Of a stretch of 64,000 nucleotides of DNA, positions 825 to 54,711 are shown piece by piece. This stretch comes from Basidiobolus meristosporus CBS 931.73 (taxonomy: Eukaryota > Basidiobolomycota > Basidiobolomycetes > Basidiobolales > Basidiobolaceae): positions 1 through 64,000 of the forward strand of contig MCFE01000394.1 of NCBI GenBank assembly GCA_002104905.1. Reading direction: 5' to 3'. Numbering within the stretch: the stretch's first letter is position 1; every line of letters begins with the position of its first letter. The notes beneath the pieces were generated by a model. It saw only the letters and a program-made list of their open reading frames with translations, was not told where the DNA came from and did no database searches. The position numbers were made by a program, and so were the translations under genes.

Positions 825-1062
825 CTATTCATGTGCATAGGCCAGTTGTTTTATAAGAGTATTCCTTGACATCTGGCTGAGAATACCATCGATGTAGTGT
901 CGAATATTCTGCGCATCTTCTTCCCTATTGGACAAGAACTTCTTCACCACTAGGCCGCTTTGTGGGTTTCTATCGGAGATTTGTGCTTGACGCATCCACG
1001 GGACTTCCAAAGACACTGGCGACCATTAGTAGAGCACAAGCTGCGGTAAGTTGCTTGTACAT
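825..1062 (-). pseudogene. GY1-family secreted protein, frameshifted and truncated
   Basis: This relic of the GY1 family begins with an ATG at 1062 in the same MYKQLTAACALLM context as the intact copies. It then follows the family through the signal peptide. At about 979 it carries a deletion of 17 nt relative to the intact genes, between the codons for SSTN and SISD, which brings a stop (TAG) into frame. Beyond the break the old frame is still readable, including NIRHYIDGILSQMSRNT. The acidic linker and the Gly/Tyr tail are missing. The same 17-nt deletion is present in the copy at 9632-10064. It is probably not a functional gene. Confidence 0.8.
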
Positions 1063-2714: not shown

Positions 2715-2720
2715 TTTATT
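2715..2720 (-). terminator. AATAAA poly(A) signal of GY1 gene, module 1
   Basis: AATAAA on the minus strand lies about 57 nt beyond the stop codon of the GY1 gene. It is conserved at 6787-6792 and 9558-9563 in the other modules. Confidence 0.65.
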
Positions 2721-2776: not shown

Positions 2777-3226
2777 TTAGCAACCCCAGTCGCATCCACC
2801 ATACCCTCCATATCCCCCATAGCGTCCGTATCCCCACCGACCTCCATAACCACCGTAGCGACCGTAACCTCCTCGTCCCCAGTATCTGCCCCTCCGCCGC
2901 CCATATCCACCGTATCTCCCCCATAGCTGGGCCTCTTCAGGATTACCTTCCTCTTCCTCGACTCCTTGGTCGGCGCCTTGCTTGCTCGAGATAGTCTGAT
3001 CAAACGTATTCCTCGACATCTGGCCGAGAATGCCATCGATGTAGTGTCGAATATTCTGCGCATCCTCTTCCCTGTTGGACGAGAACTTCTTCACCATTTG
3101 ACCGCTTTGCGGGTTCTTATCGGAGATGGATGCGCTCGCTACATTTGTGCTTGACACATCTACGGGACTTCCAAAGGCACTAACGACCATTAGTAGAGCA
3201 CAAGCTGCGGTAAGTTGTTTGTACAT
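2777..3226 (-). CDS. GY1: small secreted Gly/Tyr/Arg-rich protein with acidic pro-region (149 aa)
   Basis: This intact intronless gene encodes 149 residues. An upstream in-frame ATG at 3247 would add seven residues. I chose the ATG at 3226 because it starts the signal peptide and is the one conserved in all copies. The layout is signal peptide at about 1-20, a polar pro-region at 21-85, an acidic stretch at ~90-99 (VEEEEGNPEE), and a strongly cationic tail at 101-149. The tail is built from RYGGYG/GRWGYG motifs and ends C-D-W-G-C. The pro-region has a VKK pair at the position where the sister gene has VKR. A TATA box lies ~40 nt upstream and AATAAA ~57 nt downstream. I do not recognise a named family. 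Its architecture resembles precursors of cationic GY-rich peptides, so an antimicrobial, effector or wall role is inference. It converges on a family B pseudogene. Confidence 0.85.
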   Translation of the reverse strand: MYKQLTAACALLMVVSAFGSPVDVSSTNVASASISDKNPQSGQMVKKFSSNREEDAQNIRHYIDGILGQMSRNTFDQTISSKQGADQGVEEEEGNPEEAQLWGRYGGYGRRRGRYWGRGGYGRYGGYGGRWGYGRYGGYGGYGGCDWGC

Positions 3227-3265
3227 TGTGAATGTTGAATACTCCAATAAAGCTCGGCACCAGCC

Positions 3266-3273
3266 TTTATATA
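3266..3273 (-). promoter_or_regulatory. TATA box of GY1 gene, module 1
   Basis: TATATAAA on the minus strand lies 40 nt before the ATG at 3226. Equivalent boxes are at 7338-7345 and 10104-10113. Confidence 0.65.
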
Positions 3274-3701
3274 CAGGGACAGCTTTTGGCCAAGACGGAG
3301 GTTTATAGACATCACATCTAGGAAGCTTCGCGAAATTGATGGGTTTCGGACGAACGATATATTATATTTTGCATCTATTCTACAGGCATTAGGAAGATAC
3401 AATAAGAGCTTCTAGAGTAGTGTTATCATGCGAAAAAAAATGACTACTAACAGTACACCATTAAAAGGTAAAAATTGACAGCATTGAAGGTAAAAATTGA
3501 CCGCATTTAAAGGTAAAGATTGGCACCATTTATGAAGATAATTGACAGCCAAACTGCAATAAGACTTATCTTTGCCTAGACATCCACCTTATCCATACAC
3601 ATATCCGACTTTCTCTCCATGCTGCAGCTTGGTAAACATCACTGATTAATTACGATGAGCATTGTCATTATGATGTTTATTAAAAGTAAGGATGTAGTGC
3701 A

Positions 3702-4121
3702 TTAGCAACCCCAGTCGCATCCACCATAGCCACCATATCCCCCGTAGCGCCCATATCCCCATCGGCCTCCGTAGCCACCATAGCGACCGTAACGTCCTCG
3801 TCCCCAGTATCTGCTTCCCCATCTTCCATAGCCACCATATCTACCCCAAAGCTCGGCCTCTTCAGAGTCAGTGTCTTCACTTGTAGGAGACGCTTGTTCA
3901 TCTGCCAACCCACCGCCTGACATTTGGCCGAATATGTCGTCAAGAATGGCGCGAGCATCTTCGTCTTTTGTGGACTGGAATTGTGTTATCATTTTGCCGC
4001 TTTGTGGGTCCCGGATGGAGATGGAAGCACTTGCTACATTGGTTGCTTCTGGCTGCACAGGGGTTGCCACCGCATATGAGGCAATTAGGAGAGCAAAGGT
4101 GACGGAGAAGTGCTTTTACAT
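3702..4121 (-). pseudogene. GY2: diverged GY paralogue with a stop at codon 2
   Basis: The ATG at 4121-4119 is followed directly by TAA (4118-4116), where the GY1 genes have TAC. After this stop the frame stays open for 138 codons. It encodes a good hydrophobic leader (KHFSVTFALLIASYAVA), a short pro-region with RDPQSGKM and DDIFGQMSGGG, an acidic stretch (DTDSEEAE), and the same Gly/Tyr/Arg tail ending in C-D-W-G-C. Only the stop prevents translation, so it is either freshly inactivated, rescued by readthrough, or an assembly error. A TATA-like box is at 4158-4165. Position-equivalent, more decayed copies are at ~7672-7849 and ~10470-10598. Confidence 0.8.
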
Positions 4122-4157
4122 TGTGAATCTGAATGAAGCACTTGAGCTGATTATGAG

Positions 4158-4165
4158 TATATATA
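4158..4165 (-). promoter_or_regulatory. TATA box of GY2 copy
   Basis: TATATATA lies about 37 nt upstream of the ATG at 4121. This is the same spacing as in the GY1 genes, so the promoter looks preserved although the second codon is a stop. Confidence 0.55.
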
Positions 4166-4199
4166 CCCGCACAGCATTAAAGACACTCAACTTTACCTC

Positions 4200-5700
4200 T
4201 GCCTTCAGTGGGAAGCGCTGCGGGTGATCCATTTGGCTGTTCAATAGAAGCTGTTTAGTGGCTCTTCATTCAATCAAACACGCAATACACAACAAAAAGC
4301 TTAAAAAGATCATTTGTTTAGCAGATATGTTACAGGTTAGCCACCTCCATATTAACCATATGCTAATATTGATTGTGTGAACTTCCAGTTGCAGTCATCT
4401 CCATGTACCAATGTATCCTGTCACTGTAGCGTCATTATCCCTTTCTGTTGATGCCATAGATTCCTTTATATCTTCATATTTACTGAAGAATGGCATGATT
4501 GATGACATCTCTTGAGCCAACTCCAGCATTTATTCCCAGTCGGTTACACATACAGTTAACCTGCCGCAGTAAATCCTGAAGAATATACTTGGTCGGTGTA
4601 TGGTAAGCGGAATTAGTAAGCTCCAAGTTAGGCTGCGATAATATAAAAATTAGTGTACTTATCGAATATATTCTCAGTGCATATAGCTTGTTGTAAGTTC
4701 ATGCTAGCTGATATTGGAAGGGGCTGCGGTTCAAGCACTGAGAACTAGCTGCGATCATTATTACTAAATGACAACCATTGATTGCCTCAAGTATTCCATT
4801 TTCATTCTTAGTTGTACAGTATCTGTTGCAAATATCTTCAAATATTGGGATATTGTGGAGAATATAGGGTACTTGATAGTACAACACTGATTTAGAAGTG
4901 TCTAAAATGATGAAAGCAGAGGCCTATTACACCTGGGCAGCCTTTAAGCAACTTTCAATCATCAATTACATAAAGAACTGCTCACCAAGGAGTCGATGTA
5001 AGTTCAAAATCCCTACTGCAGGCTAACTCCAATAGCCAACAGTATGGATCAAGGAGCTATCAGCACCATTCTATATGCTATAAGATTATTTATTGCAAAA
5101 ACATGAGTTGGAATGCCGCCTAGAACAAGTTTACTGAGCTTATGTTTTACCAGTAGCTTTAGAGCAATGGAGAGTTCCTACTCTTGCTTATCAGTGTTCA
5201 AAATAACACCAAATTACTATATGAAGCAGAGTCCTATGCAGTACAGCTGTATATCTGGTAGCTACCTGCAGAGGGAGTACAAAGCAAGTCATGTGTTGGT
5301 ATTTGGCTTTCTGCAGAAGGCAATTATTGACAAGAAATAATGATTAAGCATGGCCTATTTATGCTAGTGTGCTGTAATCAGCTAAACAGTAGGAGCCTCT
5401 CTGAAAGACAGCTGGAGCACCGTACAAAGCATGCCAATGTCCCAGTATATTGAGACTTTAGCCATACCTGTGAAGGAAACTGTTCATAACAGCAAGTGCT
5501 GAGGCCACTGCACTGCTGTGGAGAATACTGAAGAGGTAATAATATTTTGAGTATGACTACAATAAACCTTATGATCGTCTATGTAAGTATCAGTAGGTAA
5601 TAACTTGGCAAGTGGAATGCTGCCAGCTTGATGTGATAGATGCTCCATCTTACCATCAGGCGCCAAAGTAAGTTTATTTATCTATCATAGCCATCATAGT
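4200..5700. other. Module spacer with a CpG-poor insert
   Basis: No gene is supported. Positions ~4395-4560 look like another eroded GY2 3' remnant. Positions ~4560-4870 repeat the spacer at 1561-1800. From ~4880 to ~5480 the sequence has very few CpG and no counterpart in the other modules, and the module homology then resumes near 5500. This looks like an inserted, decayed TE fragment. Confidence 0.45.
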
Positions 5701-5805
5701 TATCGAACAAACGCTCAAAAGATACTCTCCACAAAGCTCAGATGGTCATAAGATCTTATCCGTGCTGTGGGGCAGACGAGAGGTTGAATCAGAATCCTCG
5801 TATGG

Positions 5806-5990
5806 AAGCCGGTGAGGGACAGCCGTGGTAGGGAGTGATGGAGGTTCAATAGGACGTAATCCCCGTCTCTCATCGCGTATCTCCCCGGTTTTGTCCCCAC
5901 GTCTTTAGCAAAGTCTTCGAGAACCCCGACCTCGTGGAACCTTTCACTAAGCAATGATACTTACATTTCACTTGGGATAAATACCTAAGT
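5806..5990 (-). other. ~185-bp CpG-rich insert with a well-kept reading frame
   Basis: Compared with module 1 (2070-2100), this stretch is an extra block inside the spacer. On the minus strand it holds an open frame including SERFHEVGVLEDFAKDVGTK and RDGDYVLLNLHHSLPRLSL, ending at 5715 within flanking spacer. The composition looks like real coding sequence, but I do not recognise the protein. It may be a captured exon fragment from elsewhere in the genome. No complete gene can be built here. Confidence 0.35.
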
Positions 5991-6442
5991 AGGTAAAGCC
6001 TTTCACCTTATCCACGCATCAACCGGGCGTGTCTTTCACCACCACTATAAGTAATGGAAAGGCTATAAAGATTCGTGTTTTGAATAGATTTCCACAAGAG
6101 CCAGTGAGTTCTTTCACTCTACGAATATATATGCATGCATTCGATCCGGTTTTATACTTACAGCGAATAGAAATTCAAGCCACGCACACTAAAACAAGCT
6201 ACTCATACTATAAAATTGTAGCGCCCGTACTTCACTTGACTTAAGCCTTATTATGTTACTAGTAGCAAGGAACGGGCTCGCTTGGCTAGAAACTGAAGTG
6301 AGGGTAATACACCCAGGAGTGATCAAATATTCCCCTTCATTGCCATGGTAACTCTGCCTATCTCTCCTTGCCTACCGTCCCTATCCCCTTAAAGCTCTAT
6401 ACAGTCCTCTTCAGTATCCAATTTAGTGGTGAAATACACACA

Positions 6443-6723
6443 ATGCGATTCAATACCCTTCTCTGCTCCTTAACTGTGGCACTGCTAACCCGCATACCAA
6501 CATCAGCTCATGTCAACACGTGACCTGCGAACCGGTAGATATCACAAGCATCACTTCCGGTCCACCCGGCACCTCCGCCAAAGTAATCCTGTACCCTTCC
6601 CTGCAAGATTGCAACCGTAAAAGGAACACGACTGCTACGATTACCTCTAAACAACTCGAGATATACATCGCGAAGTACGGAAAAGAAGTGACCGTTGGAG
6701 CAGTGAGAGTCTCTGCCAACTAG
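6443..6723 (+). pseudogene. Family B secreted protein pseudogene, module 2
   Basis: The start ATG at 6443 and signal peptide (MRFNTLLCSLTVALLTRIPT) are intact. Exon 1 is then fused out of frame to the middle of exon 2 at TCAGC|TCATG, and translation stops at TGA after MRF...AHVNT. The downstream frame (6508-6723) is still open and well preserved, from SCQHVTCEPVD to VGAVRVSAN, with the two family cysteines plus one extra Cys. The deletion removed the end of exon 1, the whole intron and the start of exon 2. The same junction is present at 2394 and 9213, so it predates the duplication. It converges on GY1 at 6849-7298. Confidence 0.82.
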
Positions 6724-6786
6724 CATTCTCAATAAGAGTCATAATCACATGGCCATTCACTATCAACAGATAAAATGCAACGGTAC

Positions 6787-6792
6787 TTTATT
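6787..6792 (-). terminator. AATAAA poly(A) signal of GY1 gene, module 2
   Basis: AATAAA on the minus strand lies 57 nt after the stop of the GY1 gene, identical in position to module 1. Confidence 0.65.
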
Positions 6793-6848
6793 CAAGCACA
6801 CAGACAAGCTGTGTTGTTGGAGTGATTGAAAGCCTTGATTCTTATTAT

Positions 6849-7298
6849 TCAGCAACCCCAGTCGCATCCACCATACCCTCCATATCCCCCGTAGCGTCCA
6901 TATCCCCATCGACCTCCATAACCACCGTAGCGACCGTAGCGTCCTCGTCCCCAGTATCTGCCCCTCCGCCGCCCATATCCACCGTATCTCCCCCATAGCT
7001 GGGCCTCTTCAGGATTGCCCTCCTCTTCCTCGACATCTTGGTCGGCGTCTTGCTTATCTGAGAGGGTCTGATCGAACGTATTTCTTGACATCTGGCCGAG
7101 AATGCCATCGATGTAGTGTCGAATATTCTGCGCATCCTCTTCCTTGTTGGACGAGAACCTCTTCACCACTTGGCCACTTTGTGGATCCCTATCGGAGATG
7201 GATGCGCTCGCTACATTTGTGCTTGACACATCCACGGGACTTCCAAAGGCACTGACGACCATTAGTAGAGCACAAGCTGCGGTAAGTTGTTTGTACAT
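6849..7298 (-). CDS. GY1: small secreted Gly/Tyr/Arg-rich protein with acidic pro-region (149 aa)
   Basis: This is the second intact GY1 gene, again 149 codons and without an intron. It has a signal peptide at ~1-20 (MYKQLTAACALLMVVSAFGS) and a pro-region that includes a dibasic VKR|FSS site at 45-48, a possible Kex2 cleavage point. A conserved NIRHYIDGILGQMSRNTFDQ block and an acidic run (DVEEEEGNPEE) follow. The tail is cationic from residue 101 and ends GGYGGCDWGC. Differences from the 2777-3226 copy lie mainly in the pro-region; the tail is nearly identical. It is flanked upstream by a TATA box at 7338-7345. Secretion is well supported; molecular function is unknown. Confidence 0.87.
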   Translation of the reverse strand: MYKQLTAACALLMVVSAFGSPVDVSSTNVASASISDRDPQSGQVVKRFSSNKEEDAQNIRHYIDGILGQMSRNTFDQTLSDKQDADQDVEEEEGNPEEAQLWGRYGGYGRRRGRYWGRGRYGRYGGYGGRWGYGRYGGYGGYGGCDWGC

Positions 7299-7337
7299 TG
7301 TGAATGTTGAATACTCAAATAAAGCTCAGTACCAGTC

Positions 7338-7345
7338 TTTATATA
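7338..7345 (-). promoter_or_regulatory. TATA box of GY1 gene, module 2
   Basis: TATATAAA on the minus strand lies about 40 nt upstream of the ATG at 7298, conserved with the other GY1 copies. Confidence 0.65.
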
Positions 7346-7671
7346 CAGATACAAGATGGAGGTTGATTGATATCGCATCTAGGAAGCTTCAGTCAAATGA
7401 TGTAGTATATTTTGGAGGCAACCACCGCAGCCAAAGTACAAACACTCGATTTCTGTTAACAACAACACTAGTCGTGGTATAGAGATTTCTATACTATGTT
7501 ATATGAAAGTGGCAAGTACTTATCTCGTAAACGGAAATGGGTAGATAAACAGCGAGAGCCTCAAAAGAGAGCCTCAAAAATTGCCATTTATTTTGCATGA
7601 TTTAGAGTTGTGGATGATCGCAATATTAGTAGTAAGCTTAACAGCATGATGTATTAAATTAGCAGCTCAAG

Positions 7672-7849
7672 CAAACCCTCCAAGTTCCCAGCGACCATCG
7701 TAGTCCCCGAAGTGACCATAACGACCTCGTCACCTGCCCTCTCTGGTGCGAGCACCTTCTTCCTACACACCGTTTCCCGGCTTTGGAGAAGAGATGGATA
7801 CACTTGTCACATTAAGAAGTATTAGAACGATGGAAAAGTACTTGCGCAT
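7672..7849 (-). pseudogene. GY2-type relic, module 2
   Basis: From an ATG at 7849 the minus strand reads MRKYFSIVLILLNVTSVSIS, a plausible leader, then SSPKPGNGV and a stop. After further stops it reads RGRYGHFGDYDGRWELGGF, a corrupted Gly/Tyr tail that has lost the final Cys motif. Its position relative to GY1 matches the GY2 copy at 3702-4121, so it is the same gene in the next module at a later stage of decay. Confidence 0.6.
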
Positions 7850-7859
7850 GGTGAACACC

Positions 7860-8337
7860 AAAGGATAAACGGAGCCTACTCTTGTGTATCTTTTACGTTA
7901 TCAATCCCATACTGGTCATCTTTTTCTTGGGCCACCACCATCTGATTCCTTCACAAGGAGATGAATGAGTGGGCTACGAGTGGGTAATACCTATGTGTAA
8001 CACTCAATACTAAGCATGCACTCAAAATTTAAAGCTGAAGTGTAACAGAAACTACAACGCTTTATTTACGCCTAGATCGCACTCACCATAATCGGTGTAA
8101 CGATACTAATGGAAGTGAGCAGGCAACGCATCCGTGCCACATATGCAAGCCAACACTAGTCATCCCAGTGTAATCGAACAATACAAGGAGCATTGCTTGA
8201 GTTAGATAGTTTCTCTAAAAAAAAAGTGCTTAGCCCAAAGCGAATTTGGAAATCTCGGAGTGAATACATTAGTACAGAATATTCCGCTTCATCATGGTGG
8301 CTCAGCCTGTCTCTCCTTACAAGCCGGGCTAATTTCC
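7860..8337. other. Spacer and upstream region of family B gene
   Basis: No gene is seen. This block is repeated at ~10610-11046 in module 3. It leads into the promoter of the intact B gene. Confidence 0.5.
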
Positions 8338-8344
8338 TATAAAA
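8338..8344 (+). promoter_or_regulatory. TATA box of intact family B gene
   Basis: TATAAAA lies 66 nt before the ATG at 8411. The duplicate at 11047-11053 precedes the exon-1-only copy at 11120. Confidence 0.6.
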
Positions 8345-8410
8345 TCGCTTACAATGCTCACCTTGTTCATCAGACGTACACACAGAAGCACACACACCGA
8401 GGCACACACA

Positions 8411-8837
8411 ATGCGATTCAGTACCGTTTTCTGCTCCTTGACCATGGCACTACTAGCCTGCACAACAACTTCAGCACAATCCTCTAGTGCGTTACTAAGT
8501 ATGTAATCAGTGTATAACTCAACTAGCCGCAACCAGTGAGCCTTACTAACCAAATACTTACAATATAGAATTGGTGAATACTCCTGAAGATACTGCACAG
8601 CAACTACCATTCTCAGCTGGCTCATGCCAACGCGTGACCTTTGGACCGGTGGATACTGCCAGCATCACCCCCGAATCACCCAGTACCTCTGCCCAAGCCA
8701 TCTTGTATCCTTCTCTGCAAGATTGTAACAATCGCAGGAACAGGATTGCTGCTATAACATCCAATCAACTCGAGGTACATATCGCGAAGAACGGAAAAGA
8801 AGTGACTGTTGGAGCAGTAAGAGTATCTGTCAGCTAG
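8411..8837 (+). CDS. Family B: small secreted protein, two exons (118 aa)
   Basis: This is the only intact B copy. Exon 1 is 8411-8498. The intron (8499-8568, 70 nt) begins GTATGT, has the perfect branch point TACTAAC at 8544-8550 and ends ATAG. Exon 2 is 8569-8837. Splicing restores a 118-residue frame. It has a signal peptide at ~1-22 (MRFSTVFCSLTMALLACTTTSA) and a mature domain with only two cysteines, C49 and C82, probably one disulfide. The C-terminal half alternates polar and hydrophobic residues (LEVHIAKNGKEVTVGAVRVS), suggesting beta strands. I do not recognise the family. An AATAAA lies at 8845-8850. The intron is direct evidence for a eukaryotic, probably fungal, source. Confidence 0.82.
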
Positions 8838-8844
8838 CATCCTC

Positions 8845-8850
8845 AATAAA
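8845..8850 (+). terminator. AATAAA poly(A) signal of family B gene
   Basis: AATAAA starts eight nt after the TAG of the intact B gene. The pseudogene copies have AATAAG at the same place. Confidence 0.55.
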
Positions 8851-9212
8851 CCGCATTGTTCAGTCAGGAGTTACAAAGAATGCATCCCATTAGATATACA
8901 CAGCCAGAATGAAAGAGCAACTGTAACAGACTAGTGAACGAAAGCCTAGAATACGCCTACATATCATTATGATTATCCAGCAAAAGGTGAATGGAGTGTA
9001 TCCTCCGTAGCAACCGCAACGTCTTTGTGATACTAATAGCAAGGCACCGGCTCTCTTGGCTAGAAACTAAAGTAATGGTGATTCTTCCAATAATCAAATA
9101 TTCCCCTTCATTATCATGGTAACTCTGCCTGTCTCTCCTTGCCAACCGTTTCTATCCCCTTAAAGCTCTATACAGTCCTCTTCAGTATTCAATTCAGTGG
9201 TGAAACACACAC

Positions 9213-9494
9213 AATGCAATTCAAATCCGTTCTCTGCTCCTTAACCGTGGCACTGCTAACACACATATCAACCTTGGCTCATGCCAACACGTGATCTACG
9301 AACCGGTAGATACCGCAAGCATCACTTCCGGACCGCCCAGCACCTTCGCCAAAGCGATCCTGTACCCTTCTCTGCAAGATTGTAACAGGAAAAGGAACAG
9401 GATTGCTACGATTACCTCCAAACAACTCGAGATACACATCGCGAAGTACGGAAAAGAAGTGACCGTTGGAGCAGTGAGAGTTTCTGCCAGCTAG
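9213..9494 (+). pseudogene. Family B secreted protein pseudogene, module 3
   Basis: It starts at 9213 (MQFKSVLCSLTVALLTHIST) and runs into TGA just after the same out-of-frame exon 1/exon 2 fusion seen at 2394 and 6443. The old exon 2 frame remains open to the stop at 9492-9494, including YEPVDTASIT and VGAVRVSAS. It converges on the GY1 pseudogene at 9632-10064. Confidence 0.82.
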
Positions 9495-9557
9495 CACTCT
9501 CAATAAGAGTCATAATCACATGGCCATTCACTACCGATAGATAAAATGCAACGGTAC

Positions 9558-9563
9558 TTTATT
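9558..9563 (-). terminator. AATAAA poly(A) signal of GY1 copy, module 3
   Basis: This is the conserved AATAAA downstream of the GY1 frame in module 3. Confidence 0.55.
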
Positions 9564-9631
9564 CAAGCACACAGACAAGCTGTGTTGTTGGAGTGAATGA
9601 AAGCCTTGATCCTTGTTATTAAGGAGTTTAC

Positions 9632-10064
9632 TCAGCAACCCCAGTCGCATCCACCGTACCCTCCATATCCCCCGTAGCGTCCATATCCCCACCGACCTCC
9701 ATAACCACCGTAGCGACCGTAACGTCCTCGTCCCCAGTATCTGCCCCTCCGCCGCCCATATCCGCCGCATCTCCCCCATAGCTCGGCCTCTTCAGGATTG
9801 CCCTCCTCTTCCTGGACTCCTTGGTCGGCATCTTGCTTATCCGAGAGGGTCTGATCGAACGTATTTCTTGACATCTGGCCGAGAATGCCATCAATATAGT
9901 GCCGAATATTCTGCGCATCCTCCTCCTTGTTGGACGAGAACCTCTTCACCACTTGGCCGCTTTGTGGATCCCTATCGGAGATTTGTGCTTGACACATCCA
10001 CAGGACTTCCAAAGGCACTGACGACCGTTAATAGAGCACAAGCTGCGGTAAGTTGTTTGTACAT
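9632..10064 (-). pseudogene. GY1 copy with 17-nt frameshift deletion, module 3
   Basis: The ATG at 10064 and the signal peptide match the intact genes. A 17-nt deletion near 9981 then leads to an early stop (STNLR*). Downstream the family frame is perfect through the acidic stretch and the full cationic tail ending C-D-W-G-C. A second ATG at 10018 would enter that frame (MPLEVLWMCQAQISDRDPQS...), giving 128 residues without a signal peptide, so a cytosolic product cannot be excluded. The deletion is identical to that in the relic at 825-1062, while the copies at 2777 and 6849 between them are intact. Confidence 0.8.
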
Positions 10065-10103
10065 TGTGAATGTTGAATACTCTAATAAAGCTCAGCACCA
10101 GCC

Positions 10104-10113
10104 TTTATATAAA
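10104..10113 (-). promoter_or_regulatory. TATA box of GY1 copy, module 3
   Basis: TTTATATAAA is the equivalent of the boxes at 3266 and 7338, about 40 nt upstream of the ATG at 10064. The promoter is retained although the coding frame is broken. Confidence 0.55.
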
Positions 10114-11554: not shown

Positions 11555-11821
11555 TCATTCGCCCAAGCCAGCTTGGGATGTGCTAGCTTTAGGTTCAAAC
11601 ACAATGGCTGTCAAGGCTTCACAAGCAGGCGAAGTCTCCAGAGGCTCGTCTATATTCCTACGCATAGCTGGCTTCCCTTTAAACTTTGCTACTACTTCGC
11701 CATTCTCCATCGTTAGCTCCTGCAGCCCATGTGTTGCTGAGAATACCTCGCACACCACGCGAAGAACCAGCATGGCTCTTTCTCTATAGATACGGTCCTG
11801 GGCTTGCACCATGGTTTGCAT
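11555..11821 (-). CDS. Family C: small protein of unknown function (88 aa)
   Basis: This open frame of 88 codons starts MQTMVQAQDRIYRERAMLVL. The second Met lies in a good context (ACCATGG). It has no signal peptide. A helical N-terminal half is followed by KFKGKPAMRRNIDEPLE. The stop codon overlaps a poly(A) signal (TGAATAAA, 11557-11550), which supports the end of the gene. A TATAAA at 11849-11844 is close to the start. The duplicate at 14931-15338 keeps the first ~70 codons, indicating a real protein rather than chance. An upstream exon cannot be excluded. Function unknown. Confidence 0.5.
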   Translation of the reverse strand: MQTMVQAQDRIYRERAMLVLRVVCEVFSATHGLQELTMENGEVVAKFKGKPAMRRNIDEPLETSPACEALTAIVFEPKASTSQAGLGE

Positions 11822-13827: not shown

Positions 13828-14116
13828 TCATTGCTCAAATTCAATAGTTTCTCTGAAGAAATCAATGCCAATTTGGGTTGAATGTAATACTACGGTATAT
13901 AGTACAATATATTCCCATTCATCATCATTGCCCGAGAGAATCTGATCAAATGTATCCCTTGACATCTGGCTGAGAATACCATCAATATAGTGGTGATTAT
14001 TCTGCTCATCCTCTTCCTTGTTGGACGTTGGTGGGTCCCTGGCAGAGATGGACGTCACATCCAAAGCCCTTGGCAATCATTAGCAGAGCACAAGCTACGG
14101 GGAGTTGTCCACGCAT
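13828..14116 (-). pseudogene. GY1-family relic
   Basis: An ATG at 14116 begins a leader (MRGQLPVACALLMIAKGFG). After a frameshift comes DVTSISARDPPTSNKEEDEQ and then HHYIDGILSQMSRDTFDQIL, clearly the GY1 pro-region. The acidic linker and the Gly/Tyr tail are replaced by unrelated sequence. It is not functional. Confidence 0.75.
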
Positions 14117-14930: not shown

Positions 14931-15338
14931 TTACCCCAAATTGGCTCGATTCTTCTCTATCAATACTTCTATATAACAAAAACTCAAAAATCCCTCTGTG
15001 TGATATACTCTGAGTAATTCAAATTCTATAAAACCCAACGCTGTTCCTTCTGCAATAGGATGTTTATTCACTCGCCACACCCATCTTCTAAACTTTGGAT
15101 GTGCTAGTTTTAGTATATAGATGGCTATCAAGGCTTCACAAGCAGGTGAAGTCTTCAGAGGCTTGTCTATATTCCCACGCATAACTGGCTTTCCTTTAAA
15201 CTTCACCGTTATTTCGCCATTCTCCATCGTTGGCTCCTGCAGCTCATGTGTTGCTGAGAATACCTCGCACACCACGCGAAGAACCAGCATGGCTCTTTCT
15301 CTATAGATACGGTCCTGGGCTTGCACCATGGTTTGCAT
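14931..15338 (-). pseudogene. Family C, frameshifted duplicate
   Basis: The first ~71 codons match the 88-residue family C protein with a few substitutions. A net loss of 4 nt near 15115 shifts the frame, so it reads past the original TGA and through the AATAAA at 15065-15060. The remaining ~60 codons are therefore probably not translated as part of a natural protein. If it is expressed, transcription likely ends at the old poly(A) site before any in-frame stop. Confidence 0.55.
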
Positions 15339-16319
15339 AATAGTGGCAAGCCGTTGTTCCCTTATAGTCCAATATGATCAGATGACGGCTCGAACAATGG
15401 CCCTTTGTAAGTTCAATTAAAACTGGATTTCAACCATTGTTTCAACCATTGTTTAGTATTGATAATATGCCAACAACGATATGAGGCAATCCCGTTCAAG
15501 TTACATGCCAAGCAATGATGATGCTGAATTTTATTTATATAGCTTGAGCCAATTGGGGCGTGGGAGCTGAGTCACCGTTCTGTTGGAGAGGGGCTTGCTG
15601 TTGCGAACAGAACAGTGAGTTGACAGTAAATTGAGAATATTGAATGCTCGACATTAGCTAATATACATGGCTAATTGATATGCAGTCAAATGATGTAAAG
15701 AGATTTCTAACAACTACCATGGCCCTTCATCACACTATGCATGCATTCAATCCGGCCTAACATTTATGGTTGTAAAGAAAGCGCAACTATATCACTTGAT
15801 CTATGCTCACCATAGCACTAGTAAAGTCTTATTAGCAATGAGCAGACAGCATCAGTAGATACCCATAGCTAGTCACTCTTTCTTAGCCTGCGAGTCAACT
15901 CAAATTAGTATGTAGTCGATGTCTAGCTTGACTGGATGTAACTAGTGACTGTTGATTGCTTGAATAAAGCTTAGCACGGTTTTCGGCCAAGATGGAGGTT
16001 GATTGAAATCCCATCCATGAAACATCTCGGAATTGGTGGGTTTCAGTCGAATGATGTTGTGTATTTTGGAGGCAAACACCGCAGCTAGCATACAGCCACT
16101 TTTCCTTCTGTCTTCCACAGCAATAAGCAACTAAGCTAGCCATAGCAGAGGGATTCTTGTGTGAAAATGTTGAATATTGCTCACGTAAACAAATACAAGT
16201 GGGCAAGCAGCAAAAGTCTGCATAAACGACACTTATTTAGCATCTCTTTAAAGCTGTAGAGGATGACAATATTGCAAGTAAGCTTAACAGTACAATATAG
16301 TAGGTTAGTAATTCAAAAC

Positions 16320-29594: not shown

Positions 29595-30942
29595 TCACTC
29601 TTCATAATGCTCCAGACACATATCTCTCAGTGGATGTATTTGGAAATGAATATGCTGTGCACTGATAAGTATCTTAAAAGTTTTACTTATTCTGCTGTTT
29701 CCTCCTACATATGGCTTGCCTCTGCATTTACCTGCCAATGTGCTGAATGTCTTCAGATATCCATATGTATGCTCTACCCTTGCTCTGAAATGATTAAACA
29801 TCTCATTGTAGAGCTTCTGCTTCCGGCTAAGCACACCATTACATGGCTTCCTATAAGCTGTAAAGCATCCTAATCTCTGACAGTCCTCTTCTATATAAGC
29901 TAAGTCTGCCATCACATTTCCCCCCATACTGAATTCTGGTTGATTCTCTACCTAGAGTGCTTTGTCATGCCTAATTCCAGCAAATTACCCAGTAAACCAG
30001 ATAATGACACCCTCAGTATCAGACAGTTCTTGAAACTTCACACAGTGTGCCTTGTACTTGCCTGAATAAAAGTGCCATTGCCCTCTATAAGGTCTGTTGA
30101 TCCTGACTTGGAAGGTATCCAAAATATTCCTTACATGGAACCTACTGCTGAGCACTCTGGGATATGGAAGTCTATTGGTGCTTCTGAACCTGTTACTCCA
30201 AGCTTGCTCTAAATCATTCATACCCTTGGAAAGGAGAATCTTCATTGCTTTCAGCTAGGGATGAAAGCTTCTGCAACTAATGTTGCCATGGATAGTGGGA
30301 TGGAACCTTGCAATGGTTCTTGTAATAGCAGTGAAGCTTAACTGTTACAAGTCTTGGTATAAGAGTTGTAGAGGGATAGAGAGTTCAGCCAGTCTTGTAT
30401 TCATTAAAACATGAACTGATCTTTATTGAGGTTCCAGCAGCTCCTTATATACATTATGCCAGATCAATTGCTGACTTATTCTATTTCCTAATATAGGCTG
30501 TGGCTGATACTCATTTGATTGCATCATTATCACCCAATAAGATCCTACTTGATATATCTACTTCTGTCTGGTAAGGATCTGCTGATTCATTTGCTGAATA
30601 ATGCTACTGATTTGATGGATACTATTGATATACTGATAAGGTACACATATAACTAATTGATTTGACTAAAAACTGATCTAACTTAAACATTCAGGCAGTA
30701 GACCATTAATTAGCAAGGAATCTCCTTGAGTAGGATGCGGTAGATGGTCAACAGTATTTGGTATAGATCTCCTCTAGTGTGCTAAAAGAGAATCCAGTGC
30801 TAGTGATGGGATTGATGAAAAAGGACCATTTGGATGAGTAAGTCATTTTAAGATTAGTAAGTGATTGAACTGAGGTTACTATGGTCCCAATGCCAAGTCT
30901 CAACTCATCATCAGTACCACCTAGCCAAAACCCATCCACCAA
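29595..30942 (-). pseudogene. DDE_Tnp_4-type (PIF/Harbinger-like) transposase, interrupted
   Basis: The frame begins near 30942 (MVDGFWLGGTDDEL...LEEIYTKYC). It is cut by a solo LTR and resumes with HPTIHGN and MNDLEQAWSNRFRS. The catalytic triad of the DDE_Tnp_4 fold is visible: D in ILDTFQVRINRPY, D in GIRHDKA after a YSGKYKAHCVKFQ motif, and E in ARVEHTYGYLK. At least one stop lies between the second and third blocks (about 29985). Copy 2 at 61.8-62.67 kb shows the uninterrupted order. This enzyme would cut and paste the element and probably the MITEs that share its ends. This copy is dead. Confidence 0.8.
30343..30705 (-). mobile_element. Solo LTR of Ty3/gypsy family, inserted in transposase
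   Basis: The sequence runs from TGTTACAAG to GTAGACCA on the plus strand and matches the 55282-55644 LTR. Flanks TTAAC (30338-30342) and TTAAT (30706-30710) are a 5-bp target duplication with one C/T difference. Its removal rejoins the transposase frame seen at 61.9 kb. Confidence 0.8.
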
Positions 30943-40231: not shown

Positions 40232-40600
40232 TGTTGCAACTTAGGAAGTGATTTGGATATAAGGAACTTATCAAGATATACTGATAATAGTTGAGTTGTT
40301 GTTTATTAATAAGGAAGCTCAGTATTTATACCTTTGTAGAAGAAATATAGCTGTAACACTAAGTAAGGAGGGTTTCTCAGTATTTCAGGAGCATTCTGTG
40401 ACAGTTTCAGGGTTGATACATAATGTTTAGTAATAGTGCTAATTTGATCACAACTATAGGGGAATAATCAAAAGATCATAGATCTGAAAAAAGTGGCAAA
40501 GTTAGAGCTGTAAATTAGTCCCATAGTGACCAAGACTAGTCCAGAATTGTTAAGTAAATTTTTGCCGCTAAATGATACCAAATAGTCCAGTATTTCAACA
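40232..40600 (-). repeat. Copia 3' LTR
   Basis: This 369-bp LTR is bounded by TG...CA, nearly identical to 43461-43827 and related to the solo LTRs at 32934 and 37071. The pol frame ends 6 nt inside it. Confidence 0.85.
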
Positions 40601-41356
40601 CTCTCCCTCAACTGAAAAATTTCTCAATCCTAATTCCTCCCTGAGATTCTCATGTTGTGGCCTAGCAAGTGGTTCTGTCAATATATCTGCCACCATTTTG
40701 TTAGTTGGGCAGTACACTAACTCTACCAAGCTATTTTCTACAGCTTCCCTCACAGAGTGATGCTGTACATCAATGAGCTTAGTCCTGGCATGATTAGTAG
40801 GATTTCTAGCTAATGAGGTACAACTTTGATTATCCTTGTAAATACATGTAGGTGGATTTGAATAAAAACCTAAGTCATTGCGTAATTTTTGTAGCCATAC
40901 AGCCTCCTTAGTTGCTTGGCATGCAGCCATATATTCTGCTTCAGTTGTAGATAGGGCCAAAGTTGCTTGTTTCTTACAATTCCAAGTAATAGCTGCAGCA
41001 GCATAAAGAAATACATATCCTTTGGTAGAACATATGTTAATCAGATCCCTACCCCAATCTGAATCACTATAACCATTAAACGTTTGCTTATTAGCTGATC
41101 CAGAGTATTCCAGTACCATATTTATGGTACTTTGTAGATGTCTGACAATCAGCGTAACTGCTGCAATTTGATCTGATCCATAATTCTGCATGAATTGACT
41201 GACTATTCCAACTGCCACTGCAATGTCTGGATGTGTAGACACCATCAAGTACATTAGGCTACCAACTATTGATTGATAGGGAGTGTTTTGCTCAATATTT
41301 GAGCTGATTTTGTCTATAACTGGCTTAGATATGCTTGATTTCAGGTTATTGTCCAA
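40595..41356 (-). pseudogene. Copia pol C-terminus: RT end and RNase H
   Basis: This is the longest open part of the element (253 codons). It shows copia RT/RNase H landmarks: YQSIVGSLMYLMVSTHPDIA, GYSDSDWGRD, LSTTEAEYMAACQATKEAVW, DNQSCTSLARNP and ADILTEPL. The RNase H Asp of SDSDW and Glu of TEAEY are present. The coding sequence runs across the polypurine tract and stops at TGA inside the LTR. It is joined to broken frames upstream, so it is not active. Confidence 0.85.
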
Positions 41357-41522
41357 AGGAGAAGCTGCAGGTTTGCAATTTTCCTTTTTGAAGCATCTAA
41401 GAATGTCCCTGGTGTACTTGGACTGATTCAGCTAAATTTTCTGCGTAGGATGAACACACCCTTTTTAAGCTGTTTCACATATATACTTTAATCTGCAGTG
41501 CTACATGAGAACTCAATTTCCT

Positions 41523-41885
41523 CTAGATATGTGTCAATCTTCTTATACCATGCACTAGGTGCCTGCTTAAGCCCATACAACAGTTTTCCAAGTTTGCACA
41601 CCTTTTGAGGGTCTTTAGGATTGGTAAAACCTTCTGGTTGCTCCATATATATAAAGTTTCTTGCAAATTCCCATTTAGAAAGGCTGTTTTGACATCCATT
41701 TGGTGTAGATATAGACTGTGTACAGCTGCCAGGGCTAGAACTTTCCTAATGGACTCAAACCTGGCAACCAGAGCGGATGTTTCCTTAAATTCTAGTCCCT
41801 GGATCTGGGAATAGCATTTACCCACTAATCTTGCCTTATACTTGTCAATGGCACCATTTGGGGTTATCTTGATCTTTAGACCCAT
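41523..41885 (-). pseudogene. Copia reverse transcriptase N-terminal part (RVT_2)
   Basis: [34 protein letters not shown] and [20 protein letters not shown] are classic RVT_2 motifs, including the first catalytic Asp ([11 protein letters not shown]). The frame breaks before the YVDD block. Confidence 0.85.
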
Positions 41886-42157
41886 CTACATCCTATTGGC
41901 TTTCTCCCATTTGGAAAATCAACCAGTTCCCATGTTTTTGCCATGATCAGTGATTGGTACTCCTTGTACATAGCTAGTTGCACATTGTAGCATCTGGACT
42001 TTGTATTGCCTGTTCCAGATTCTGAGGTTGGGCAAATCAGGCAAGATAAGCTTCTTCATGATCATTAGATGTCTGCCACCAGGATCCATGAGCACTTCTT
42101 ATTCTGGTAGATCTCCTGACTGGGATAATCTGCTCTGATCTGGAACTGGTAGATTTA

Positions 42158-42373
42158 TCAAATATTTGTCTTGGCTCCAAAGGACAGTGTTTTTGTGGGG
42201 CCACATATGTTAGAGTGTACAATAGCCAATATTTGAGTGGTATTGACGCCTTCTGAGCTCTTGAAATGTTGCCTAGCTAATATGCCATATGAACATCCCT
42301 TACAAGCATTCAATTTGATTGGAATTGAGTATTCTAGGCCCAAGACAAGCTGATTTTTCACCAATTGGCTCAT
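42158..42373 (-). pseudogene. Copia integrase N-terminal fragment
   Basis: NACKGCSYGILARQHF and LAIVHSNICGPTKTLSFGA match the C-x-x-C and VHSDICGP segments before the copia integrase core. The first catalytic Asp position reads HSN, and the rest of the core is absent. Confidence 0.7.
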
Positions 42374-42927
42374 TTTCTGTTCCCCAATGTGTCCTTGTCT
42401 GCTATACCATGTTTCCCAGTTAGTTTCATCAGCTTTGGCAATGTTGACATACTAAGGTACAATGCTCTTGCATTGTGACTTGTATTTATTGTGACTTTTG
42501 ATTCCCAAACCTAATTTTGTCCATTTTCACTCAATATTGAGCAGCTCATCTTAGTAAAAACAAATTTCAGTCCCTGAGCAGTTGCTGCACTGATTGATTG
42601 TGGGTTCTTAGCAATAGCAGGTAAATAGAGTACATCAGTCAATGCAGCCATTGTTGCCCCTGAGCTATTGCTCATATTTAGTTACATAGACCCCCCTGCA
42701 GTAGCTTCCAGAGCAGAGTTATCTCCCAGATAAACCTTTCTTACAGGAAAAGTTTTTAAGTTGCTGATCCACTCCTTTATTCCAGAAGTATGCTGTGATG
42801 CTCCAGAGACAATATACCATTCATTACTTCAGTTACTTGAACTCTCTTATACGGTTACAAATAACTGTTCATCAGTAATTATATGGTTTGCCTGCTCTAG
42901 TTTCTGTTTTTTGTCTGCTTCTTTCAT

Positions 42928-43302
42928 CTAGCATTCTCTTGCCCAGTGTCCTGGCTTTATACAGTAGTTACAGTAAACAGGTTTTCTTTGGTTTTGTTGC
43001 TTCTCCTTCTTTTCTGAGTGCATTTCTGAGCTGAATAAAGCATTATCTTCAATTTTCTCTGCTTGATCATTATATCTGAGTTCTTCATGGAGAAGTCTTC
43101 CTTTGACAAAGTCTAAAGTCATATTGTTTTCTTTGCTCTCAAAAGAAAGTAAGAGTGACTCATACTTGTCTGGTAGGCTGCAATGCAGACAGAGTATCTT
43201 TTCTTCATCATCTATACCAGCATTAACGCTGTAGAGTTCTTCTGCAAGTGTCTCCATTCTGGTAATGAGTTGTAGCATGTCACCATCTGGCTTTGTCCTC
43301 AA
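42928..43302 (-). pseudogene. Copia gag (UBN2-type) with zinc knuckle
   Basis: MLQLITRMETLAEELYSVNA, ILCLHCSLPDKYESLLLSFE and the zinc knuckle YCNYCIKPGHWAREC (C-x2-C-x4-H-x4-C) identify a copia gag. Nearby upstream codons to ~43400 continue it with stops. Confidence 0.8.
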
Positions 43303-43448
43303 GTTGGAGAACTTTTGTTTTAAGTAAAGCTTGCTTGATACTTACTTTACTCTAAAGATCTTCTGAGAGGATTCTCATGCTGCTTTGGAAGTATTTGAGG
43401 CATTGATTTGCTGGTCAAAGTCATCTTTAGATTAGATGAAGGCAACAA

Positions 43449-48211: not shown

Positions 48212-48978
48212 TTGAAGGAATATTCAGACATCTTTCCCAATGAACTTGAAAGCCTACAACCAGTCAGAGATAGGGACTATGCTATTGATACAGGAGATAG
48301 CCCTTCAGTGAGCAAGACATCATACCGAATGAGTCCATTGGAATTGAACAAGATGAAGAGACATATAGTTCAGTTGTTGGAGCAAGGATATATCAGACCT
48401 AGCAAGTCACCTTAGGGAGCACTATTGCTTTTTGTGAAAAAGAAGGATGGAACACCTAGGATGTGCATTGACTACTGAGAGCTCTGTTTCAATTACTGTC
48501 AGGAAAAAGTACCCTATACCCTGGAATGATGAGCTATTGGACCAACTTAATGGAGCCATCAAGATATAACCAGATTGGGGTGAAACTAGAAGATATCCCT
48601 AAGACAGCATTCAGTACCAGATATGGATGTTACATGTAATTGGTCAGGAGCTTTAACCCCACCAATGCCCCTGCAATATTCATGACCTTGAGGCAAGCAG
48701 TCTTTCAGGAGCTCTTAAAGTTGATGGTAGTCTACCTAGATGATTTATTGATCTATAGCAAGACAGAAGGGCACTTGGTGCACATTAAAGTGATCTTGAG
48801 GAAGCTAAGAGAGAACAAGCTGTATGGCAAGCTAGTAAAGTGCAAATTCTTGAAGGAGCATGTTGAATACCTGGAAAACATAGTGACTAGCACAAGAGTG
48901 ACTTTAAGGCCAAGAAGGTTGAGGTCATCAAGAGTCCAAAGCAGCCCCATAGCATTTCAGAACTCTGATCATTCCTAG
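48212..48978 (+). pseudogene. Gypsy A reverse transcriptase fragments
   Basis: KEYSDIFPNELESLQPVRDR and MKRHIVQLLEQGYIRPSKSP give the RT N-terminus. TNAPAIFMTLRQAVFQELL and MVVYLDDLLIYSKTEGHLVH contain the catalytic YLDD. Frames are broken between them by stops and deletions. Confidence 0.85.
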
Positions 48979-51384: not shown

Positions 51385-52420
51385 CTAGAGTCTGTCACTA
51401 TGAGCTAAATCTTGCCAGATGTTCCCTTGTTTATCATCTAGATGGTAAGTTGCAAATGGACATTGTCTCATGATCTTAAGGGGTCCTGTCCATTGTGGCT
51501 CCAGCTTCTTCCAAGAGTTATTTCTCAGCAATACAAAGCTCTCAAGTGCCAATGCTTCTGGTGATATAGTTTCATTAAATCTCTGCTTCATCTTTTTAGC
51601 ACTTTGTGATGCTTTGGCCTGTGTCTGTTGTTGTCTATGTTCCAGTTGCTGGTGTCCACTTGGCTGGCAGAACCCATTTTCTAAGGCATATGTAAGCTTT
51701 GGTTGTGTAACATCTCATGGAGTTCTTAGCTCACATCCATACACTAAGTAAAATGACAGTTGCTGGGTGGTGTTGTGTACTCTAACTCTGCATGCAAAAG
51801 TGCTTGGTCTATTTACTTATCCCATATACTAACAACTACATTAGTACACTTGGTGAATATTTTTCCAAATATGTCATTAAACCACTCAGTGACTCCATTC
51901 ATTCTAGGATGACATGCCATGATTTTCAGGTGTTTGATCTAAAACATTTTCAGTTACTCTTCCAATATCTTTACCATAGTGTTTACTCCTCAATTGGATA
52001 GAATCTCTAAAGGCCATCCAAACTTCATTAGGATCTCATGGCAGATGAGACTTTCAACTGCTTGTTCACTAGCTACAGGTACTGCTTTTCAAACTGTCTT
52101 ACAGGCTCCAAGTGAAAGAGTTTGGAAATTCTCTGTGGTTGGCCTTGGTTAATTTGGCAAATTGGACATGTTTTCACTAGCTTCTCAATGTCTTGTTTCA
52201 TTCTGAGCCACCATGCTCTGGCTTTCACAAGGCTACAGGTTCCTTCAAGTCCAGGATGTCTATATCCATTGAGTAGCCTATGTACTAAATCCAGGAAACC
52301 AATATAAGGGCAATAGACAATAGGCAATAGGGCTTCCATCAGCAATTTGGTAGAGTGCTCATCCTGTACCACAAATATGCTAGCTTCATCCCAGATTATC
52401 TTCTTGATCTCTTCATCCAC
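51385..52420 (-). pseudogene. Gypsy B integrase fragments
   Basis: The N-terminal zinc-binding part is at 52073-52420 (HRLLNGYRHPGLEGT, TCPICQINQGQP; H-H-C-C type). A broken catalytic core shows ACHPRMNGVTEWFND with the conserved Glu (about 51900). The C-terminal domain at 51385-51591 (PQWTGPLKIMRQCPFATYHL, HSDRL) follows. Stops separate these blocks. Confidence 0.8.
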
Positions 52421-52599
52421 CTTATTAGGAATATCTTAGGCTTCAAGTACTTTGGTAATAAGCTAGGCCAATCTGATATATGCACCAAGTTAAGTTGTGC
52501 AACTTGTTCTAATCTTTATAAGGTATCAGCAACCATGTTGCTTTTGCTAGAGCAGTAAGCAATCTCCAAGTCAAATTGCTGAATGTATTCACTCCTTCA

Positions 52600-53148
52600 A
52601 CTCATTCTTCTGGAGAGTACCTTCTGAGCAAATGCACACTTGAGTGAGGTATGATCAGTCCTCAGAGTGCACTTGACTCCTTTAATGTGGCATCCACAGG
52701 TCTTCAAGCAGTGTATTATGGCAAGGATCTCCTTTTCATGCACTGGATAGTACTGCTCTGCTGAGTTCAGCCTCTTGGACCTAAAAGCAACTGGATAGTC
52801 TGTTCCCTCTTGTTCTTAGCTGAGTATTCCACCAATTGCATAGTTTGAAGCATCTTTGCATAAAGTAAACTCTTTTCTGAAGCCTGGAGTTCTGAAGCTT
52901 GGCAACTTAGCAAGTTCATTCTTGAGCATCTGAAAGGCAGTCTCACAGGCTATGTCCTACTTCATAGTGTTGTCTTTCTTGAGAATATTAGTTAAAGGGG
53001 CTGCAATACTTCCAAAGAACTTGACAAATGTCCAATAAGAGGAAACCATTCCAAGAAATGAACAGAGTTTTGATATGCTATGGGGCTGCTTCAGATTCTT
53101 GATGGATTCAACCTTCTTGAGGTCTAAAGTCACTCCTATGCTAGCCAC
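52600..53148 (-). pseudogene. Gypsy B RNase H and connection region
   Basis: GVTLDLKKVESIKNLKQPHS, LCSFLGMVSSYWTFVKFFGS and APLTNILKKD lie in one frame (52957-53148). The RNase H core further downstream is interrupted by stops but parallels 49101-49400 of element A. Confidence 0.75.
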
Positions 53149-53205
53149 TAGGTGTCCCAGGTATTCAACATGTTCCTTCAGGAATTTACACTTTGCTAGC
53201 TTGCC

Positions 53206-54167: not shown

Positions 54168-54711
54168 TGTTAACTGCTACTGGCTGAGTAATAGAGTTGA
54201 TTATGTGAGAGTTCCCACCACCTGTTGAGATTGAAGTTGATTTGGTGGGTTCCAAGTTGATTGCAGCTTTCAAAGCAAATTGCTCTGACATGTACTCATG
54301 TAATGCTCCTGAGTGAATTATGATCTTGGCAGGTACTCCATTGATTACTCCATTGAAGTATAATAGCTTTCCTGAGTTTGAGGTCATCTGGGATAGGTAT
54401 GCTTCTGTCATATTGAAGATGAGTTCTGAGTCTTTGTCAAGTTCATCCTTCATGTTACTATGCTTAAGGGCTTCAATATAGTTGAAGATTCTTAATGGCT
54501 GGTATCCATTTCTTCTCTGAGGGCAGTACTTTACAATATGTCCCTGCTGGTGGCAGTTAAAGCAAAGTCCTCTTTTCTTACATTCTTCTGAGGTAGGATT
54601 TTTCTGCATAGCATCTATTTCCATTGTCACTGCTTCTGATTGTCTTCTTATATAGTGATTGTAGCTTCTCTGATTAGTCACTGTAGGCTTTCCAACTTCA
54701 AACATAGCCAA
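54079..54711 (-). pseudogene. Gypsy B gag zinc knuckle and protease
   Basis: The knuckle is GLCFNCHQQGHIVKYCPQRR (C-x2-C-x4-H-x4-C). The aspartic protease segment reads GVPAKIIIHSGALHEYMSEQ, where the catalytic Asp of the DSG motif is His, so the protease should be inactive. The frame overlaps the RT frame by 89 nt. Confidence 0.8.

Follow-up and report, generated by a model that had tools for sequence, protein, structure and literature searches.

The first 14 kb of a 64,000-nucleotide (nt) stretch of the Basidiobolus meristosporus CBS 931.73 genome (contig MCFE01000394.1, positions 1 to 64,000; the whole stretch is called the window) contain a minus-strand gene of 149 codons within a duplicated unit. 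Its products, which we call the GY proteins, combine a leader and an acidic pro-part with a cationic tail rich in Gly, Tyr and Arg, and this tail is the most strongly constrained part of the protein. Our favoured interpretation, held tentatively and with somewhat less than even confidence, is that GY proteins may be secreted precursors of antimicrobial-type peptides; secretion, cleavage after an Arg at the pro-part/tail junction, binding to surfaces and antimicrobial use are the steps that we infer.

Copy number and selection on the tail

When the genome of this strain (89 Mb, 1311 contigs) was searched by tblastn with the 149-amino acid (aa) protein, at least 148 matches were obtained (150 of 167 candidates were scored). 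The query matched itself best (1.6e-98), and another 27 full-length matches without stops, all of the same type, GY1, were found at 2e-83 or better. A second type, GY2, is 139 aa long, about 60% identical to GY1, and represented by 11 full-length, stop-free copies. The genome thus holds at least 39 intact copies (28 GY1 and 11 GY2), next to many broken ones; the public protein clusters P0001 and P0003 have 28 and 11 members, respectively. These counts may include allelic contigs, for example C1207 and C356 (98.4% identity over 8.7 kb) or the window and C1123 (98.0% over 5.9 kb). Since array contig pairs are 81-99% identical (two longest alignments of each pair), most of the array contigs are taken to be duplicates that have diverged, and some pairs could be allelic. 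All statistics given below for 38 copies refer to 28 GY1 and 10 of the 11 GY2 copies; one intact GY2 copy (C966:8610, with the start MHK) was missed by the filter.

The ratio of nonsynonymous to synonymous change (dN/dS) was calculated for these copies by the Nei-Gojobori method (378 pairs within GY1, 45 within GY2 and 280 between them). For the tail it was 0.09 within GY1, 0.07 within GY2 and 0.05 between the groups (dS 0.62, dN 0.034), and for the pro-part 0.23, 0.55 and 0.15, respectively. The other two frames of the tail gave 1.34 and 3.46 in the comparison of GY1 with GY2 (250 equal-length pairs), and synonymous change predominates solely in the GY frame. A real gene in the alternative +1 frame was considered and rejected (dN/dS 1.3). 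Within GY1 and between the groups dS is lower in the tail than in the pro-part, and within GY2 it is higher, which suggests that gene conversion may have acted unevenly; the ratio dN/dS, however, sets the two kinds of change against each other within one and the same stretch of bases.

Because the tail is under such strong purifying selection, it is not a low-complexity by-product within B. meristosporus. A preliminary description of this DNA would have taken a by-product tail whose ending is not conserved in related species as evidence against its own reading; this applies in part, as the endings do differ in Basidiobolus ranarum, but the tail itself is under purifying selection in B. meristosporus. 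It also appears very improbable that the loci are mostly nonfunctional repeat debris, in which a Gly-rich frame stays open by composition. Such an explanation would accommodate the many broken copies, the +1 frame that is likewise open across the tail and the frames resembling transposable elements seen by eye elsewhere in the window, but it is contradicted by the frame-specific purifying selection, the 39 intact copies, the conserved TATA and AATAAA signals and the homologues in a second species.

GY copies in the window

The GY copies and their signals are as follows.
2777-3226, minus strand: intact GY1 copy, 149 aa, single exon, identified by its reading frame and the genome tblastn self match
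3170-3226, minus strand: putative leader of the 2777 copy, about residues 1-19 (boundary inferred)
2924-3169, minus strand: pro-part of the 2777 copy, residues 20-101
2780-2923, minus strand: tail of the 2777 copy, residues 102-149
3246-3273, minus strand: conserved core promoter TATATAAAGG of the 2777 copy, with the TATA box 47 nt upstream of the ATG
2715-2720, minus strand: AATAAA polyadenylation signal of the 2777 copy, offset 59
6849-7298, minus strand: intact GY1 copy, 149 aa, 93% identical to the 2777 copy and carrying VKR-F
6996-7241, minus strand: pro-part of the 6849 copy
6852-6995, minus strand: tail of the 6849 copy
6787-6792: equivalent AATAAA of the 6849 copy
7318-7345 and 10084-10111: further matches to the TATATAAAGG promoter
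3702-4121, minus strand: diverged, broken GY2 copy (ATG TAA at codons 1-2, the remaining frame open through CDWGC), 59% identical to the 2777 copy
9632-10064, minus strand: broken GY1 copy, its pro-part 17 nt shorter and frame-shifted, its tail frame still open
825-1062, minus strand: GY1 fragment without acidic spacer or tail, outside 2777-10064
13927-14028, minus strand: GY1 pro-part remnant, outside 2777-10064

The 149-aa frames that the preliminary description had recognised are indeed present at 2777-3226 and 6849-7298; each begins in the manner of a signal peptide and continues through an acidic linker to a Gly/Tyr/Arg tail with CDWGC at its end. Its account of tandem copies needs qualification: of the four tail-bearing copies between 2777 and 10064 two are intact, and the other two are broken, by the stop at codon 2 and by the frame shift.

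The TATATAAAGG pattern has three matches in the window against none expected (100 shuffles). All 38 intact copies, which are related and hence non-independent, have TATAWA 35-51 nt before the ATG and AATAAA 23-71 nt past the last sense codon. In the related types B, C and D described below, TATAWA was found in all six C and D stretches and in none of three B frames within 110-130 nt; two of these nine stretches repeat the same C genes. A scan of the window against Rfam gave no match at the gathering score.

In some copies elsewhere (L009, C1207:3107-3421; L010, C1207:11215-11511; L022, C356:5991-6287; L025, C966:11217-11522 and C966:18519-18806) an unrelated stretch with Cys residues (CFNQPCHSLMNMSCGSNGRGYGDR... 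or a similar sequence) is joined in frame with the acidic spacer and the GY tail, which gives these copies the appearance of a tail recombined onto another sequence.

The wider Basidiobolus superfamily

The GY family is one branch of a superfamily whose members share an acidic spacer, have leaders that are related and, with few exceptions among those seen, the same kind of junction; the cationic tails differ (GY-CDWGC, (GRGRW)n, (FRRYGP)n, with further kinds in B. ranarum). The other loci were reached via weak tail matches.
Type B: contig C650, 31-57 kb, genes spaced at roughly 1.2 kb, and further ones on C184; (GRGRW)n tails
Type C: contigs C25, C870 and C184, and C650:57.4 kb; (FRRYGP)n-like tails
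Type D: contig C792, two intact; ending GCYDWDC

Several type B members carry a Lys/His-rich middle segment, and some B frames are broken or have no full leader. In the B array (L029, L055, L061 and L062; C650, about 31-50 kb) the repeat number of this segment varies, from KKHSKKHHKK to KKHHKKHHKKHHKK. Compared by hhalign without their tails, the pro-parts of GY and D matched those of B, C and B. ranarum with 97.4% probability and an E value of 1.4e-11, the first 53 columns, leader included, being aligned; GY1 and D matched at 3e-8 in a single blastp comparison.

Apart from B. meristosporus, significant matches came solely from B. ranarum, which has seven members (P0049-P0055); a short eighth, P0060, was matched by the pro-part search. 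The seven have related leaders, and six have the junction. Their tails end in C(G/S)GDDCG(S/D)C in five cases (GRGRFG-type), in YGRSY in one and in GVCIV in P0050; the tail of one member consists of RRHDYDRY repeats. In P0050 (K7432_017454) a related leader and pro-part are followed by a linker rich in Lys and Gly and then by about 65 residues with six Cys (within residues 145-229, approximately). This 6-Cys stretch, for which neither a Pfam match nor a credible relative in the PDB was found, could represent a novel domain or else an artefact of the gene model.

Layout of the predicted precursor

GY precursors are built of a leader of about 19 residues, a VASAS-like stretch, the acidic spacer, the junction and the cationic tail. 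Judged by eye and from a low-confidence AlphaFold helix at residues 4-15, the leader is probably a signal peptide. AlphaFold2 returned a confident fold neither for GY1 with alignment A3 (13 sequences; predicted local distance difference test, pLDDT, 48.7) nor for P0050 (pLDDT 40).

A junction motif near PEExELxxR, with the consensus (P/S)-E-E-(A/T)-x-L-(W/Y or none)-(G/R)-R, occurs in nearly all superfamily members seen. In the 38 intact GY copies it reads NPEEAQLWGR (23 copies), DSEEAELWGR (8), DPEEAELWGR (3), NPEEAELWGR (2), DSEETGLWGR (1) or DSEETDLWGR (1), and in P0051-P0055 of B. ranarum PEETELRR. E97, E98, L101 and R104 are invariant in A3; alignment A1 (11 sequences) shows no variation at E98, L101, W102 and R104 and hardly any at E97. 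The junction has RR in all five B. ranarum GRGRFG-type tails, in P0049 and in three of four C-type tails (WRR), and WGR in the counted GY, D and B tails, with WRR in one further partial B frame. Ahead of the acidic spacer, B, some C and B. ranarum members have a (T)PEEAQLRR-like segment; this motif and PEExELxxR look alike within one precursor, and both might serve as processing sites.

Superfamily tails end in CDWGC, CYDWDC, GRW, YRW and similar sequences, and GGYG-type repeats GRYGGYGGRWGYGRYGGYGGYGG are present in those of GY. The CDWGC ending, previously called invariant, keeps both Cys and the Trp in all 38 intact copies, and its D and its G in 37 each. The VKR-F sequence, on the other hand, does not hold up as a dibasic processing site, as the position reads KRF in 16 and KKF in 12 of the 28 GY1 copies; none of the 10 GY2 copies examined has either.

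Such sites also bear on the idea that these are Kex2-processed repeat proteins (KEPs), from which repeats are excised as short signalling or effector peptides. Of 1461 fungal strains covered by one survey, B. meristosporus CBS 931.73 is reported to have had the most KEPs, 43 (PMC7329392), and tails with 4-7 RR/KR sites do occur, namely those of P0049 and of type C, (FRRYGP)n. The GY repeats, however, are not separated by dibasic sites: the GY1 tail has two overlapping positions (one RRR) in all 28 copies, not between repeats, and the GY2 tail none in nine of 10 copies. Thus, as an account of the family KEP processing is improbable; type C may be a KEP, and the GY branch, to judge from these sites, is not.

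Composition and charge of the tail

The 30 distinct tails of 56 precursors (1481 residues) contain 540 Gly, 394 Arg, 388 Phe/Trp/Tyr, five Ala/Ile/Leu/Met/Val and no Lys, and the matching pro-parts (one precursor per distinct tail) contain 168 Lys and 129 Arg; P0050, with its C-terminal part of another kind, and C650:41.9, with a frame-shifted tail, were left out of this count. As the aromatic residue is Trp in type B tails, which lack Tyr, and mostly Phe with some Tyr in C tails, the conserved property is aromatic character rather than Tyr specifically. The last 45 residues of the pro-part together with the tail have a mean net charge of +0.1 (15 chosen precursors), and the pairing of 45-residue spacer and tail charges, in these related sequences, gave 0.027 against permutation. 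The precursor-like architecture of acidic pro-part and cationic tail proposed earlier is supported.

The same composition could also belong to a structural or adhesive protein, a reading that we consider somewhat less likely than the antimicrobial one. The tail would be an Arg/aromatic/Gly sticker-and-spacer polymer able to condense, kept soluble by the acidic spacer and used as the glue of adhesive conidia or as spore wall material, and the arrays would serve dosage. A condensing polymer needs Arg over Lys, aromatic stickers and Gly spacers; the tails prefer Arg strictly over Lys, nearly lack aliphatic residues, are frozen by purifying selection, occur in at least 39 intact copies and have no confident AlphaFold2 fold (pLDDT 48.7). 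Capilliconidia of the Basidiobolus family can bear adhesive material (PMC13370150), and in the mussel-type protein Mefp-3 hydroxyarginine is present, a zwitterionic fp-3 variant being able to self-coacervate (PMC4275877). However, Tyr is not conserved, being absent from each of the four distinct tails of GRW type that were counted, and therefore a glue based on 3,4-dihydroxyphenylalanine (DOPA) cannot be general; moreover, some B-type members have the Lys/His-rich middle segment and P0050 the 6-Cys stretch. Sequence alone cannot decide between antimicrobial and adhesive or wall functions, and the latter explain it nearly as well.

Searches for relatives

The best protein match was a hypothetical protein of B. 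meristosporus CBS 931.73 (99% identity, full length), and all significant relatives are unnamed hypothetical proteins of Basidiobolus. Word-based searches with the single protein, the full alignment (best 7993 candidates) and the pro-part alignment found nothing outside this genus below an E value of 3.5e-3; the resulting lists are lower bounds, the pro-part search having missed P0050 although a piece of this protein was part of the query. No Pfam model scored above its cut-off for the 11 family proteins scanned, GRP (PF07172) reaching 12.9 bits against a cut-off of 30. Profile A3 found no credible relative in the PDB, where the best match (E 0.0033) was a mitoribosomal chain aligned on its Gly-rich tail. 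A literature search returned nothing pointing to the family; K493DRAFT names appear in a single paper, whose title suggests another subject. In agreement with the earlier impression, no described fungal family was found for these CDWGC-ending proteins.

An acidic part beside GYR-rich repeats was also seen in P0014 (an unnamed protein, E 3.5e-3) and P0043 (Artemia shematrin-like, E 3.3), a similarity that likely reflects low-complexity convergence.

Other features of the window

A second small gene, at 8411-8837 on the plus strand, adjoins the GY gene tail-to-tail in the duplicated unit. It has an MRFSTVFCSL... leader, its product is probably secreted, and beyond one presumed intron its second exon reads ...VTFGPVDTASITPES...LYPSLQDCNNRR... 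This exon has 71 matches in the genome and relatives at 6511-6717, 9282-9491 and 2465-2602, and a relative of the first exon starts at 11120; the product (approximate splice) had no match in a Pfam scan. Another duplicated reading frame, MQTMVQAQDRIYRERAMLVLRVVCEVFSATH..., lies beside the GY array at 11555-11821 and 14931-15377 (minus strand). Remains that by eye resemble Copia- or Gypsy-type retroelements and DDE transposases are found at
40595-43341, minus strand
48640-48978, plus strand
52073-54759, minus strand
29595-29951, minus strand
62095-62457, plus strand

Proposed function of the precursor

In the antimicrobial reading, which we favour, the leader would route the protein into the secretory pathway, and the spacer, rich in Glu and Asp, whose negative charge roughly balances the positive charge of the tail, would hold the precursor near neutrality. 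The conserved junction would separate the C-terminal Arg/Gly/aromatic module, to be cut or unmasked there, and the freed module could attach to anionic surfaces by means of its guanidinium groups and of cation-pi interactions, most likely as part of an antimicrobial-type arsenal against gut and soil competitors. Such a design would resemble that of frog-skin and defensin precursors, with one conserved prepro-part and interchangeable modules. Related leaders and the same junction do stand ahead of wholly different tails, and antimicrobial use is preferred because the modules behind related leaders are diverse, including Lys/His-rich ones, and because the design resembles charge-neutralised antimicrobial peptide (AMP) precursors.

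Several observations weigh against this interpretation. Typical lytic AMPs have aliphatic residues that these tails lack, and inside a branch the tails are frozen rather than diversifying. The leader is the least constrained part of the protein (dN/dS 0.40 within GY1, 0.74 within GY2 and 0.50 between them), and the junction of the GY branch has no dibasic site (WGR, not RR). P0050 has no junction motif before its C-terminal part and, lying on a 2.1-kb contig, may be a gene-model error. Two candidate properties found no support: strict charge pairing of the whole pro-part with the tail was no better than chance (0.15; B3 and C2, which have a cationic middle segment, are outliers), and of 14 segments following PEEAQLRR in the middle of the pro-part only one, with one segment mis-picked from the tail, beat shuffles at 0.05 as an amphipathic helix.

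Purifying selection on a mature part is nevertheless compatible with antimicrobial use, since in AMPs of the frog R. dybowskii the mature parts of all families but one are reported to be below w = 1 (PMC7073735). Trp-rich AMPs often contain Arg (PMC6017362). Among nematode peptides, CNC-4, a Gly/aromatic peptide of 48 aa with GGYG repeats, is antibacterial (PMC8181894), and synthetic NLP-31 is active in vitro (PMC2453101). RNA-seq data of B. meristosporus CBS 931.73 exist (PMC7466969).

A broader proposal, which we regard as unlikely but put forward, is that Basidiobolus secretes by module swapping: a leader of one type, a single acidic brake and a single EExxLxxR release site would serve many unrelated cationic modules, as an independently evolved counterpart of frog prepro-dermaseptin in a fungus whose habitat is the frog gut. 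Candidate modules are the Lys-free Arg/aromatic/Gly polymers, the Lys/His-rich middle segments and, perhaps, the 6-Cys domain.

If the tails are antimicrobial, an early-diverging fungus of the amphibian gut would possess a large peptide arsenal, no description of which was found in our literature search; Basidiobolus specialised metabolism is treated in terms of small molecules in the reports consulted (PMC7466969, PMC10964425). If they are glue or wall material, they become candidates for the molecules by which spores of early-diverging fungi adhere. In both cases the Lys-free Arg/aromatic/Gly rule, which holds across dissimilar tails, is a natural experiment on what Arg can do in such polymers and Lys cannot.

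Comparison with known systems

KEPs share with the superfamily a signal peptide and repeats, and in type C and P0049 also the repeated RR, but the GY, B and D tails are not divided into units by Kex2 sites. With the Pfam GRP family the common element is a Gly-rich C-terminus, at a score below the cut-off.

The caenacins and the NLP-29 cluster of nematodes (CNC-4, NLP-31) are likewise small, rich in Gly and aromatic residues and GGYG repeats, with a mature part of about 48 residues in CNC-4; they are secreted, as GY proteins are presumed to be, and genes nlp-27 to nlp-31 are clustered as neighbours (PMC8181894, PMC2453101). In CNC-4, however, GGYG comes directly after the signal sequence and RPGLLGML forms the C-terminus, whereas GY is Arg-rich, has an acidic spacer and ends in CDWGC. 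The RPGLLGML end is missing from GY-superfamily tails, and word-based protein searches, of limited sensitivity, found no homology to named nematode members. The suggested relation to nematode YGGYG peptides thus comes down to a likeness in composition, and the GY family, by its sequence, is not a caenacin.

A short Gly/Arg/aromatic-rich chain is common to GY tails and Mefp-3; GY tails differ in being Lys-free and in having an acidic spacer and a conserved junction. Hydroxyarginine and the flexibility given by Gly are described in work on such adhesives (PMC4275877).

Frog-skin and defensin AMP precursors have a signal peptide (predicted here), an acidic propiece and a cationic C-terminal module, and their modules vary behind a related front (PMC7073735). 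Their sequences are unrelated to those of GY, whose junction has no dibasic site and whose tails are nearly devoid of aliphatic residues. By analogy, GY proteins would work like a charge-neutralised peptide precursor, their likeness to AMP families being one of architecture.

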